A DNA stretch of 64,000 bases from Lachnospiraceae bacterium (lineage in GTDB: Bacteria > Bacillota > Clostridia > Lachnospirales > Lachnospiraceae), in NCBI GenBank assembly GCA_015057865.1, contig SVDH01000004.1:43746-107745 (forward strand), read 5' to 3'. The position numbers and the translations under genes were made by a program. This document shows, one piece after another, positions 19,439 to 24,680 of the stretch. The notes under the pieces were generated by a model. That model made no database searches. It saw only the letters and a list, made by a program, of their open reading frames with translations, and was not told where the DNA came from. Numbering within the stretch: the stretch's first letter is position 1; every line of letters starts with the position of its first letter.

Positions 19439-22400
19439 ATGAGTGATGCAAAAATCAGACCTTTCAAAAAGGTCATGGTGGCAAACAGAGGGGAGATTGC
19501 CATCCGGGTATTCCGTGCATGTCAGGAATTAGGAATATCCACTGTCAGCATTTATTCAAAGGAAGACCGCTACGCAGCATTCCGCAGCAAATCAGATGAG
19601 TCCTATCCGCTCGATCCGAACAAGGGACCGATCGATGCGTATCTGGATATTGATACGATCATTAAAATTGCTGTTGCAGAAGGCGTTGATGCGATCCATC
19701 CCGGTTATGGATTCCTTTCAGAGAATCCGAATTTTGTAGACGCTTGCGAGAAAAACGGCATCGTCTTCATTGGACCGACAAGCACGATCATGAATCAGAT
19801 GGGTGATAAGATCTCATCCAAGAAAATGGCGATCGAAGCTGAAGTTCCGATCATTCCTGGTGTTGACTATGCCATTAAGGATTATGAAAAGGCAGCTGAA
19901 GTTGCACAGATGGTTGGGTTCCCGGTTATGCTGAAGGCTTCCAATGGTGGTGGCGGACGCGGTATGCGTATCGTTAACTGCCTCGAGGATCTTGAGCAGG
20001 AATTTGAAGAAGCAAAGAACGAATCCAAAAAGGCTTTCGGTGATGACAAGATCTTCATCGAGAAATATTTAAGAAGCCCGAAGCACATCGAAGTACAGGT
20101 GCTTGGTGATAACTACGGTAACGTTGTTCATCTGTATGACCGTGACTGCTCCGTACAGCGCCGTCATCAGAAAGTGGTTGAGTATGCTCCTGCTTTCTCG
20201 ATCCCGGATGAGACAAGAAAGATCATCTTTGATTCCGCGATCCGTATGTGTAAGGCAGTTAACTACCGCAATGCAGGAACCTGTGAGTTCCTGGTAGATG
20301 CAGATAATAATCCGTACTTCATTGAGATGAATCCGCGTGTTCAGGTTGAGCATACTGTATCTGAAGAAGTGACCGGTATTGATATTGTTGCTTCACAGAT
20401 CCTGATCGCTCAGGGTTATCCGCTTGATTCCCCGCAGGTACGTATTCATGGACAGGAATCCATCACATGCAATGGTTATTCTATTCAGACACGTATTACC
20501 ACAGAGGATCCGCAGAACAACTTCCTGCCGGATACCGGTGAGATCACTGTTTATCGTGCAGGCGAAGGTGCAGGTATCCGTCTTGACGGCGGTAACGGAT
20601 TCCAGGGCGCTGTGATCACACCATTCTATGACAGTCTTCTGGTTAAAGTAATCTCTCACGCACGTGATTTTGATATTGCGATCAATAAATCCATCCGTGC
20701 GATGTCCGAGATGCGTATCCGTGGTGTTAAGACCAATATTCCGTTCCTTGTAAACGTGCTGAACCATCCGCTCTTCCGCAGTGGTCAGTGTTACACCACA
20801 TTTATTGAGGAGACACCGGAGCTGTTCGACATGGCGATGAGTCAGGACCGTGCCACAAAGGTACTTGAGTTCCTCGGTGATAAGATCGTCAACGAAAGCG
20901 GCGGAAAGAAAGACAAATTTGAAAACCGTGTGCTTCCGTATGTGGATGAGTCCAAACCGGTTTACGGTATGCGCGATGAGTTCCTGAAGCTCGGTGCTGA
21001 AGGTCTGATGCAGAAGATTCTTAAAGATAAGAAGCTTTATGTAACGGATACCACGATGCGTGATGCGCAGCAGTCACTTATGGCAACCCGTATGAGAAGC
21101 AAGGATCTGTGCGGTGCTGCAAAAGCAACCAATGCATATCTGGCTAACGCTTTCTCTGCTGAGTGCTGGGGCGGTGCTACATTCGATACCGCATATCGTT
21201 TCCTGCATGAATCACCGTGGGAGCGTCTGGAACTGTTAAGAGAGCGTATGCCGAATACATTGCTGCAGATGCTGCTTCGTGCTTCCAATGCAGTCGGATA
21301 TACCAACTATCCGGATAATGTTGTAACAGAATTCATTAAGATGTCAGCTGATTACGGCATTGATGTATTCCGTATCTTCGATTCCCTGAACTGGGTTGAG
21401 AACATGAAGGTGCCGATCGATGCTGCATTAAAGACCGGAAAGATCGTTGAAGGTACGATCTGCTACACCGGCAACGTGATCAGCCCGGATGAGACCAAGT
21501 ATACGCTTGATTACTACATCAACATGGCACTTGAGCTTGAAAAACTTGGTGTTCATGCGATTGCGATCAAGGATATGGCAGGTCTTCTGAAACCGCTGGC
21601 AGCGAAGAAGCTTGTTTCTGCACTCAAAGAAGAGCTGCACGTTCCGCTTCACCTGCATACACATGATTCCACAGGTAATGGTGTATCTACCGTATTAATG
21701 GCAACTGAGGCAGGCGTTGATATCGTCGATCTGGCAATTGAGTCAATGTCCTCTCTTACCAGCCAGCCGTCTCTGAATGCTGTTGTTGAAGCAACGGAAG
21801 GTTCTGATCGTGAAACAGGTCTGAAGTATGAAGAGCTTGATGAGCTGAGCCGCTACTACAGCCGTGTCCGCAAGGTATACACATCCTTCGAGAGCGATAT
21901 GAAATCTCCGAATGCTGAGATCTATAAATTCGAGATCCCGGGCGGCCAGTACTCCAACCTGCTTGCACAGGTTACCAGCATGGGTTCACCGGAAGACTTC
22001 GAATTCATTAAAGTCCTTTACAAAGACGCAAATGAGCTGCTTGGCAATATCGTTAAGGTTACACCGACCTCCAAAGCAGTCGGCGATCTTGCGATCTTCA
22101 TGTACAAGAACGGCCTGACCAAAGAAAACATCCTCGAAGCCGGCGCAGGACTCTCCTATCCGGATTCTGTTGTCTCCTACTTCCAGGGTATGATGGGACA
22201 GCCGTACGGCGGATTCCCGGCTGAGCTTCAGAAGATCGTCTTAAAGGATATCGAGCCTCTGACCGATCGTCCGGGCAAGACACTCGAACCGGTTGATCTG
22301 GATGCCATTGCAAATAAGCTGCGCGAAGAACATGATTTCTTCAAAGACAAAGATGATCGTTATATGAAGAGATGTGCATTAAGCTATGCACTGTATCCGA

Positions 22401-22924
22401 AAGTATACGAAGATCATTGCGAATATTATGAGACCTACAATAATATGACCCGTCTGGAGAGCCATGTATTCTTCTTTGGTCTTGCAAAGGGTGAAGAGAC
22501 ATACTTAAGACTTGGCGAAGGTAAAGAAGTTCTGATCAAATATCTGGATCAGAGTGATCCGGATGTCAACGGTATCAGAAACGTGATGTTCCTGGTAAAC
22601 GGTGCTGTACGTACCGTTAAGATTCAGGATAAGACCCTTGAGATCAAGTCCGATCGTAAGCTCAAAGCTGAGAAGAACAATCCGAAACATCTTGGATCTT
22701 CTATCCCGGGTACTGTCAGCAAGGTTATCGTCAAAGAAGGCGATGTAGTTGAGAAGAACCAGGCACTGATGACAGTCGAGGCCATGAAGATGGAAACCAC
22801 TGTTGTTTCCAAGATCAATGGTACTGTAGACAAGATCTACGTACAGGCCGGCGATTCTGTAAGCCAGGATGACCTGCTGATCTCCTTCCATCTTGCAGAT
22901 GATGAAGATGCAGGCGAAGAATAA
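19439..22924 (+). CDS. pyc: pyruvate carboxylase
   Basis: Biotin enzyme converting pyruvate, bicarbonate and ATP to oxaloacetate. The single 1161-residue chain has biotin carboxylase (residues 1-460; ANRGEIAIRVFRACQ, NGGGGRGMRI, MNPRVQVEHTV), a carboxyltransferase TIM barrel (about 535-810; DTTMRDAQQSLMATRMRS, LHLHTHDSTGNG), the PYC-specific segment, and a C-terminal biotinyl domain with VEAMKMETTV. It stands alone with its own promoter and terminator. Role: anaplerosis toward aspartate, and perhaps succinate. Confidence 0.98.
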   Translation: MSDAKIRPFKKVMVANRGEIAIRVFRACQELGISTVSIYSKEDRYAAFRSKSDESYPLDPNKGPIDAYLDIDTIIKIAVAEGVDAIHPGYGFLSENPNFVDACEKNGIVFIGPTSTIMNQMGDKISSKKMAIEAEVPIIPGVDYAIKDYEKAAEVAQMVGFPVMLKASNGGGGRGMRIVNCLEDLEQEFEEAKNESKKAFGDDKIFIEKYLRSPKHIEVQVLGDNYGNVVHLYDRDCSVQRRHQKVVEYAPAFSIPDETRKIIFDSAIRMCKAVNYRNAGTCEFLVDADNNPYFIEMNPRVQVEHTVSEEVTGIDIVASQILIAQGYPLDSPQVRIHGQESITCNGYSIQTRITTEDPQNNFLPDTGEITVYRAGEGAGIRLDGGNGFQGAVITPFYDSLLVKVISHARDFDIAINKSIRAMSEMRIRGVKTNIPFLVNVLNHPLFRSGQCYTTFIEETPELFDMAMSQDRATKVLEFLGDKIVNESGGKKDKFENRVLPYVDESKPVYGMRDEFLKLGAEGLMQKILKDKKLYVTDTTMRDAQQSLMATRMRSKDLCGAAKATNAYLANAFSAECWGGATFDTAYRFLHESPWERLELLRERMPNTLLQMLLRASNAVGYTNYPDNVVTEFIKMSADYGIDVFRIFDSLNWVENMKVPIDAALKTGKIVEGTICYTGNVISPDETKYTLDYYINMALELEKLGVHAIAIKDMAGLLKPLAAKKLVSALKEELHVPLHLHTHDSTGNGVSTVLMATEAGVDIVDLAIESMSSLTSQPSLNAVVEATEGSDRETGLKYEELDELSRYYSRVRKVYTSFESDMKSPNAEIYKFEIPGGQYSNLLAQVTSMGSPEDFEFIKVLYKDANELLGNIVKVTPTSKAVGDLAIFMYKNGLTKENILEAGAGLSYPDSVVSYFQGMMGQPYGGFPAELQKIVLKDIEPLTDRPGKTLEPVDLDAIANKLREEHDFFKDKDDRYMKRCALSYALYPKVYEDHCEYYETYNNMTRLESHVFFFGLAKGEETYLRLGEGKEVLIKYLDQSDPDVNGIRNVMFLVNGAVRTVKIQDKTLEIKSDRKLKAEKNNPKHLGSSIPGTVSKVIVKEGDVVEKNQALMTVEAMKMETTVVSKINGTVDKIYVQAGDSVSQDDLLISFHLADDEDAGEE

Positions 22925-22956: not shown

Positions 22957-22999
22957 AAAAAGCCCCTGCCACATAATGTGACAGGGGCTTTTGTTTTTT
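22957..22999 (+). terminator. pyc terminator
   Basis: AAAAGCCCCTGCCAC/GTGACAGGGGCTTTT, a 15-bp stem with one mismatch and a 5-nt ATAAT loop, then GTTTTTT. It lies 32 bp after the pyc stop. Confidence 0.92.
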
Positions 23000-23015
23000 A
23001 TCATTCAAATCGAAC

Positions 23016-23193
23016 GCCAGGACAGCGTGGATATCTTCAAAGAAAACGGGCTTCCCTCCGGTGACCTAACTCCCAACTCTGACTAAGACGCTCAGGATGA
23101 GCCTTTGCGCCTAAGTCGTCGTAGGGAGTGGATTCCACCTCCGATCAAAACGCCCTTAAAAAATCTTTGAAGATATCCACGTCTGTTCCTGGC
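23016..23193 (+). ncRNA. candidate structured RNA element, copy 1
   Basis: A gene-free 178-nt element. The outer arms GCCAGGACAGCGTGGATATC... (23016-23043) and 23164-23193 pair over 28 bp with two one-base bulges. Inside are GGGC/GCCC, GGTG/CACC, then a core: CTA, 6-bp helix ACTCCC/GGGAGT, loop AACTCT/GTCGTA, and helix GACTAAGACGC/GCGCCTAAGTC with an internal A-A mismatch, and GGAT on the 3' side. Copy 2 has the same core on the opposite strand with compensatory changes. The strand given is that of the core as written; the transcribed strand is not proven. No ORF in it looks real. Confidence 0.6.
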
Positions 23194-23240
23194 TGTGTAA
23201 TTGATTGTTTGCCAAATAGCAATAGCCAATACTGTATACA

Positions 23241-23430
23241 GAGCAGTCAAAAACGAAATGCTTTTTCGACAAAACATTTTTCTGAAGGCGCGGTTAGCGT
23301 GTAGGGAAGATCCACTGCTTACGGAAACTTAGAGTCGAAGTCGATCTGAGACTCTTAGTTGTAGTTAGCAATTAGCTTGCCCGAAACGCTGCGCCCATGT
23401 TTTTCGAAAAGCATTCCGTTTTGACTGCTC
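23241..23430 (-). ncRNA. candidate structured RNA element, copy 2 (inverted)
   Basis: Second element of 190 nt. The outer arms 23241-23277 and 23397-23430 pair over about 32 positions (GAGCAGTCAAAA.../...TTTTGACTGCTC) and are unrelated in sequence to copy 1. Read on the minus strand, the core gives CTA, helix ATTGCT/AGCAGT, loop AACTAC/TCCGTA, helix AACTAAGAGTC/GACTCTAAGTT with the same A-A mismatch, then GGAT. In the 3' direction from purH this orientation is sense. Function unknown. Confidence 0.6.
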
Positions 23431-23436
23431 TTATGT

Positions 23437-23463
23437 TGTCCGCGCTGTTCTGGCGGACATTTT
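23437..23463 (+). terminator. possible plus-strand terminator near the purH 3' end
   Basis: TGTCCGC/GCGGACA (7-bp stem, 9-nt loop) followed by TTTT on the plus strand, between element 2 and the purH stop. On the minus strand no U run follows. Confidence 0.4.
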
Positions 23464-23479
23464 AAATGTAAGTATAATT

Positions 23480-24655
23480 TTAGTGGTGGAACAGTCTTAA
23501 TCCCGTGAAGCACATGGCGATACCATACTTGTTGCAGGTCTCAATGACGTTATCATCACGGATCGATCCGCCCGGCTCAGCGATGTATTTAACACCACTC
23601 TTTCTGGCGCGCTCAATGTTGTCGCCAAACGGGAAGAATGCATCTGAACCAAGCGCAACATCTTTATTGCCTGCAAGCCATGCTTTCTTTTCTTCTCTTG
23701 TAAATACCGGCGGTTTTACCTTGAAGATCTTCTGCCATTCGCCTTCGCGGAGAACATCTTCATATTCATCGCCAATATAAACGTCGATCGCATTGTCTCT
23801 GTTTGCACGGCTTAAGCCATCAACAAACTGCAGGTTCTGAACCTGCGGAGACTGACGAAGATACCAGTTATCAGCTTTCTGGCCGGCAAGTCTTGTACAA
23901 TGGATACGGGACTGCTGTCCTGCACCGATGCCGATCGCCTGTCCGCCTTTTGCATAACAAACGGAATTCGACTGTGTATATTTCAATGTGATCAGTGCAA
24001 TGATCAGATCGATCTTTGCAGAATCCGGGATTTCTTTGTTCTCCGTGACAACGTTTCCAAGGAAATCGCGGTCGATCTTAAGCTCATTTCTGCCCTGTTC
24101 AAATACAACGCCGAATACTTCCTTGTGTTCGATCGGATCCGGCACATAATCAGGATCGATCTGGATGACATTATAATTGCCGTTTTTCTTTTGTGTCAGG
24201 ATATCCAGTGCTTCCTGTGTATATCCTGGCGCGATCACACCGTCAGATACTTCTCTTTTGATCAGTTTGGCAGTATCTGCATCACAAACATCTGACAGGG
24301 AGATAAAGTCGCCGAAAGATGACATACGGTCTGCTCCACGGGCTCTTGCGTAAGCACATGCCAGTGGTGATAATTCGCCGCAATCATCTACCCAATAGAT
24401 TTTCTTTTCGATCTCTGTCAGCGGCAGACCAACTGCTGCACCGGCAGGTGATACATGTTTAAAAGAAGTTGCGGCACAAAGACCGGTTGCTTCCTTTAAT
24501 TCCTTTACAAGCTGCCAGCCGTTAAAAGCATCCAGAAAATTAATATATCCTGGTTTGCCGTTTAAAACGGTGACCGGCAGTTCGCCTTCGTTCATAAAGA
24601 TACGGGACGGCTTCTGATTTGGATTGCATCCATACTTTAATTCAAGTTCTTTCAT
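23480..24655 (-). CDS. purH: AICAR transformylase (PurH without the cyclohydrolase domain)
   Basis: Transfers a formyl group from 10-formyl-THF to AICAR, the ninth step of purine synthesis. The 391-residue protein matches only the C-terminal AICARFT domain: LKYGCNPNQKPSRIF, SFKHVSPAGAAVG, TQSNSVCYAKGGQAIGIGAGQQSRIHCTRLAG and DAFFPFGDNIERA. The MGS-like IMP cyclohydrolase domain of bifunctional PurH is absent; the next gene supplies that activity. The start MKELELKYGC at 24655 has GGGAG at 9 nt; the ATG three codons earlier is too close to it. Last gene of the string. Confidence 0.95.
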   Translation of the reverse strand: MKELELKYGCNPNQKPSRIFMNEGELPVTVLNGKPGYINFLDAFNGWQLVKELKEATGLCAATSFKHVSPAGAAVGLPLTEIEKKIYWVDDCGELSPLACAYARARGADRMSSFGDFISLSDVCDADTAKLIKREVSDGVIAPGYTQEALDILTQKKNGNYNVIQIDPDYVPDPIEHKEVFGVVFEQGRNELKIDRDFLGNVVTENKEIPDSAKIDLIIALITLKYTQSNSVCYAKGGQAIGIGAGQQSRIHCTRLAGQKADNWYLRQSPQVQNLQFVDGLSRANRDNAIDVYIGDEYEDVLREGEWQKIFKVKPPVFTREEKKAWLAGNKDVALGSDAFFPFGDNIERARKSGVKYIAEPGGSIRDDNVIETCNKYGIAMCFTGLRLFHH

Positions 24656-24680
24656 TTCAATCATCTCCCATTATGCATAA

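Follow-up and report, generated by a model that had tools for sequence, protein, structure and literature searches.

A dispersed family of long palindromic repeats with conserved internal loops in Lachnospiraceae genomes

ERIC and BOX repeats are long imperfect palindromes located in intergenic regions. BOX is discussed in PMC3049150. The REP sequences of E. coli possess a conserved mismatched bulge that is required by TnpA_REP, a regular stem abolishing activity, and the authors of that study liken TnpA_REP to the IS200/IS605 transposases and to integron integrases (PMC8266576). Longer palindromes can contain REP dimers, and G.T pairs are reported to be frequent in GTAG REPs (PMC3733652).

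The two hairpins described here belong to a previously unnamed, apparently undescribed repeat family of gut-type Lachnospiraceae, for which a search of a literature collection retrieved no description. We consider it probable that its members are long palindromic DNA repeats, dispersed and mobile, that contain no coding gene. The abundance of this repeat in bacteria of a dominant gut family is of interest, and its conserved loop code, carried on free stems, may serve as bait for an enzyme reading folded DNA in these bacteria.

The window locus and its repeat family

The window, i.e., the whole 64,000-nucleotide stretch of DNA analyzed, harbors in the gap between pyc and a purH-type gene the terminator of pyc, element c1 in plus and element c2 in minus orientation (Table 1). 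A sequence-only reading had placed two hairpins at 23016-23430; both are real, and their bounds needed adjustment by a few bases. The plan proposed for their tips (CTA, a 6-bp helix, AACTNN, a helix with an A·A mismatch, NNCGTA and GGAT) is exact in both elements. The shared plan is far beyond chance, as indicated by the BLAST E-values of c1 in its own genome, by a family-wide model (E down to 1e-24) and by the double changes given below. Relatives of c1 are found at three other places of the same genome (BLAST, 76-79% identity, E 2e-27 to 3e-20).

Table 1. Features of the pyc-purH gap and its flanks (window positions)
Feature	Position	Strand	Basis or remark
pyc (pyruvate carboxylase)	19439..22924	+	NCBIfam NF009554, 1645 bits; upstream neighbor
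Terminator-like hairpin of pyc	22958..22992	+	17-nt arms, 94% complementary, then T run; just before c1
Element c1, full unit GAACGC ... GCTG, 184 nt	23012..23195	+	fits family plan GGACG-50-core-56-CTG
Outer arm CGCCAGGACAGCGTGGATATC	23015..23035	+	window aligned with L309; shared with sister species G299
c1 inverted arms	23026-23043/23164-23181		18/18, 100% complementary
c1 conserved core	23060..23139	+	model R1, 91.8 bits (c1 itself among R1 input)
Element c2, full hairpin, 193 nt	23240..23432	-	inverted-arm runs
c2 inverted arms	23240-23257/23414-23431 and 23250-23265/23407-23422		complementary runs, ~16-18/18
c2 conserved core	23304..23381	-	model R1, 87.3 bits (c2 itself among R1 input)
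Outer-arm right copy, decayed, TTGTCCGCGCTGTTCTGGCG	23436..23455	+	pairs with 23015-23035; aligns with G299 right arm GATATCCTTGTTGTCCTGGCG
purH-type formyltransferase gene	23480..24664	-	NCBIfam NF005492, 725 bits; convergent neighbor

The shared core is ~79 nt long and occurs in 5 copies in the window's genome. The covariance model R1 was built from five core copies, c1 and c2 included, and the covarying fold put forward by the sequence-only reading is borne out, as 9 of the 28 consensus pairs display double changes in only five sequences. Search with this model returns many homologues, in which CTA/GGAT and AACTNN/NNCGTA are kept: core matches are present in 24 of the 299 genomes sampled from the same family, Lachnospiraceae (E down to 1e-24, up to 37 matches per genome), and missing from the 275 others. 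No R1 match was found outside Lachnospiraceae in an order-wide (n=392) and a phylum-wide (n=399) sample. Named genomes were also scanned with a strict pattern; among the matches listed are Blautia schinkii DSM 10518, uncultured Blautia, Dorea and Eubacterium, unnamed Lachnospiraceae, and records with no label beyond Clostridia, Clostridiales or Eubacteriales. The hairpins are absent from Rfam families: a standard search of the window matched only RNase P and two tRNAs, none at the hairpins, and permissive settings applied to the element gave weak sub-threshold matches, none of them credible.

Anchoring of 112 copies defines a unit of ~185 nt, formed by GGACG, a ~25-bp stem, a rod with conserved internal loops, a return strand and CTG. 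The left arm is 49-53 nt and the right arm 54-58 nt long in most measured copies. The ~25-bp stem inside the GGACG/CTG foot is a locus-specific sequence, different in almost every copy. The arms, already described as unrelated between c1 and c2, are equally so in the two largest sets, with identities between copies of ~30% in genome G102 and 34% in genome G026, while complementarity reaches 93% between an arm and its own partner (all measured copies) as compared to 41% between copies. In G231 the identity between copies is 62%, and these copies look younger. Arms are stable between close species, and some of those in G102 form gradual subfamilies. Slow drift with pairing kept is therefore the simpler account, and fresh copying of the arms from the target during insertion was rejected on the same grounds.

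The unpaired bases of the inner rod, in contrast to the paired stems, do not drift: CTA/GGAT, AACTNC/TNCGTA and the A·A pair within CTAAG/CTAAG are kept, and the GCTAAG loop is found in many genera. Across 103 distinct cores most loop bases are at least 95% conserved, and helix D makes use of TA, CG, GC and AT pairs.

Two variants of the unit were observed. In the copies of genome G298 (L061, L140-L149) the tip is longer and variable and has the form of a bidirectional terminator, with an A tract, a GC stem and a T tract. In G026, the GGACGC/GCTGG foot of copies L113 and L114 stands 118-167 nt out, which gives the appearance of one set of arms nested within another.

Mobility, genomic placement and candidate partners

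Empty-site comparisons were made within the window's genus. Besides the copy at the window locus, the sister species G299 contains five copies with closely similar arms, two of them directly behind stop codons. At both of these loci the site is empty in G230; G000 is empty at one of them and carries a different miniature element of ~290 nt at the exact site of the other. At the window locus, G299 possesses the same outer arm CGCCAGGACAGCGTGGATATC enclosing a c2-type core in plus orientation, without c1. The copies of this genus exhibit matching, TACTTTTTTGC...GCAAAAAAGTA-like ends next to TA, and we infer a TA target duplication from two loci. The multi-copy spread, the empty sites in sister species and the swapped core at the window locus point to the behavior of mobile DNA, and the best explanation for the copies of the window's genus is that they move as TA-targeting inverted-repeat miniature elements. 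The sequence-only reading had named a known transposon end as a result that would speak against it; this behavior comes near to it, yet no known transposon was matched.

Other elements accompany these copies. A second miniature element, ~290 nt long (L336, G000:C36:60000-60700; L003, 1700-1995), possesses the same TACTTTTTT ends around a different hairpin and is present in about ten copies in its own genome. The 550-nt elements L003 and L004 are composites of this element with a core element. Copies L005, L006 and L007 of G000 have 50 nt of the c2 arm in common, two of them being cut at contig ends, and in L007 a c2 left arm and a c1 arm flank other sequence, with CGTGTTTGT/ACAAACACG as the ends.

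A passive palindromic miniature transposon, whose pairing is maintained by template switching alone and whose core is conserved through recency, without any loop reader, would fit the TA-flanked inverted-repeat copies of the window's genus as well as the wobble-free, perfect stems. Template switching at quasi-palindromes converts loops to palindromes (PMC7202029, PMC8794818) and is known to mimic compensatory change (PMC8794818). Conversions of this kind, which also fit, were found in 3 of 112 copies (L100, L129, L134), where the AACTNC loop strand has turned into a perfect stem or palindrome. However, template switching alone would erase asymmetric loops, and the arms are saturated while most loop bases have stayed at least 95% conserved over many genera, which suggests that something reads the loops. 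A purely passive element is therefore unlikely.

Intergenic sites are more often convergent than divergent (36:9 and 18:9 in two sets), and behind a co-oriented upstream gene the median distance from the stop codon to the start of the unit is ~40 nt. At tandem sites the orientation relative to genes exhibits no consistent bias (39:24 and 39:38). Co-orientation with genes was rejected as a rule, since it holds for 75 of 108 copies in one set but for no more than 57 of 104 in the other, as was a replication-strand rule in G102, where the leading strand is used by 24 of 36 copies as judged by local skew, a count confounded by gene orientation. Two neighboring copies nearly always face each other (21 of 22 pairs, that of the window included), and six of these inward pairs are more than 1.5 kb apart. 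To note, the inward pairs at L060, L063, L070, L118, L182 and L197 are separated by 1.7-6.2 kb, with host genes in between where examined; no outward-facing pair was seen.

Neither a transposase nor any other recurrent gene family was found beside the copies. The elements are not the ends of a transposon flanking a gene, as inverted pairs enclose no shared ORF. IS200-type (Y1) transposases were also considered: they occur in 9 of 12 genomes with the repeat and in 8 of 12 without it, and G057 and G115 contain many copies and no Y1. This similar frequency, together with the two Y1-free genomes, suggests that Y1 is not the obvious partner; its occurrence did not correlate with that of the repeat.

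The position at gene 3' ends, the convergent gaps, the inward-facing pairs and one locus at which the element is kept in four related genomes would suit a domesticated host element, for instance a nucleoid or topology protein site or a 3'-end barrier of the kind suggested for REP/BIME repeats. Against such a function, most sampled relatives lack the repeat altogether, and single loci are present or absent among sister species; we regard domestication as distinctly improbable.

Base pairing and the conserved loops

Pairs in structural RNA commonly change via G·U (PMC8794818). Helix-internal transitions off Watson-Crick pairing were counted on the gene-sense strand, for the arms in two sets of 111 and 116 copies. 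The arms are Watson-Crick paired at 90-93% of sites, and their G·U and A·C counts are 49:69 and 55:60 (104:129 in total). The 103 distinct cores, counted over helices C, D and E, contain 30 G·U for 85 A·C; column 29-50 alone holds 47 of these A·C, and setting it aside leaves 28:38, which is not RNA-like for the antisense strand either. Terminator-like hairpins of the same loci, taken as a control, display 25 G·U for 14 A·C, a weak wobble bias (p = 0.11 alone; 0.037 versus the elements). A second control, the tRNA acceptor stem, gives 5 G·U for 0 A·C in a small sample. Both controls are small and point in the expected direction; the main weight lies on the near-equality within the elements themselves. 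Pairing is kept as Watson-Crick, G·U being no better tolerated than A·C. The stems pass between all Watson-Crick pair types with hardly any G·U intermediates, a pattern that points to a fold of importance in DNA rather than in RNA.

A structured RNA, either a 3' UTR element or a small RNA selected for its fold, would display conserved loops on covarying stems, as the repeat does; many copies would be transcribed, as a co-oriented gene has its stop codon ~40 nt ahead of them, and the tips in G298 carry a terminator-like A-stem-T tract. The absence of any preference for G·U over A·C, in arms or core, speaks against this reading, and the repeat is mobile, sporadic, without linked gene and without Rfam match. 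Of the structured-RNA candidate put forward by the sequence-only reading, the conserved covarying fold stands and the RNA identity does not; selection as an RNA is not supported, and we give it little credence. Covariation alone would have filed the repeat as a new structured RNA, which is a warning, and a simple count of G·U versus A·C is of help in telling folds of DNA from those of RNA.

The favored reading, a mobile palindromic DNA repeat, would involve a fold formed by the DNA itself, whether in a single strand exposed in the course of replication or in a cruciform. Template switching at replication would account for at least part of the maintained arm complementarity. The unpaired CTA/GGAT, AACTNC/TNCGTA, A·A pair and GCTAAG may constitute the recognition code of a trans-acting protein, and it is probable that a protein reads these loops once the DNA is folded. 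This reader would most likely be a recombinase or transposase spreading the repeat, by analogy with the REP transposases and integron integrases that act on bulges of folded single-stranded DNA.

A related motif was observed in phage contigs. The loop motif of the repeat recurs in the AACTNCGACTAAG...CTAAGTCTNCGTA hairpin of two filamentous (Zot-type) phage contigs (L280, 9090-9152; L281, 3329-3391), which lies in the main non-coding region of each and adjoins a GAACCCTAAAGGG stretch. The hairpin matches the 24 fixed bases exactly, which is unlikely by chance for a collection of the size searched (~0.02 by our own estimate), but the match was found after the fact and its R1 score is 27-28 bits only; it is treated as a lead. 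An unrelated, tailed-phage-like contig (L316, 6750-6900) contains an intergenic AACTCGGACTAAG...CTAAGTCCTCGTA hairpin that is possibly convergent, or part of a wider motif. The viral match L315 was discarded as a chance match in coding sequence, and neither the unit nor the phage hairpin gave anything useful in BLAST searches of phage and plasmid collections. That the repeat is the folded-strand substrate of a single-stranded-DNA recombination system, with a loop code borrowed by or shared with filamentous phages, is a speculative extension to which we attach a low probability.

Comparison with known repeats

Compared by description only, the repeat resembles ERIC and BOX as a long imperfect intergenic palindrome, in different bacterial groups. 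We know of no loop code on freely varying stems in ERIC or BOX. Integron attC sites, a subject of PMC3053210 and PMC11641012, are folded single-stranded DNA recognized through its structure and extrahelical bases, with a free stem sequence and a place just past a stop codon, and the repeat as proposed here is like them in these respects. Unlike attC sites, the repeat is not associated with an integrase, occurs as single dispersed copies rather than cassette arrays, and has its conserved part at the tip instead of the foot. Identity with attC was rejected, since the foot carries GGACG/CTG in most copies and not the RYYYAAC/GTTRRRY boxes.

In the window's genus, and there only, the copies are similar to MITEs of the IS630 type with a TA target: they possess matching ends, a TA site and empty sister sites, and are gene-free. 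The copies of other genera differ in being devoid of those ends and have only the GGACG...CTG rod in common with them.

With REP/BIME sequences the repeat shares many dispersed intergenic palindromic copies, a bias to gene 3' ends, frequent inverted pairs or dimers, and conserved unpaired bases within the stem. Its differences are its length, 184-193 nt instead of 20-40, its several conserved internal loops, its freely varying stems, and the lack of a visible 5' GTAG tag, of a linked Y1 gene and of a preference for G.T. A CGTC-tagged REP was rejected as well, the GGACG foot having the opposite polarity. In kind, the hairpin repeat is a larger relative of the REP and MITE repeats.
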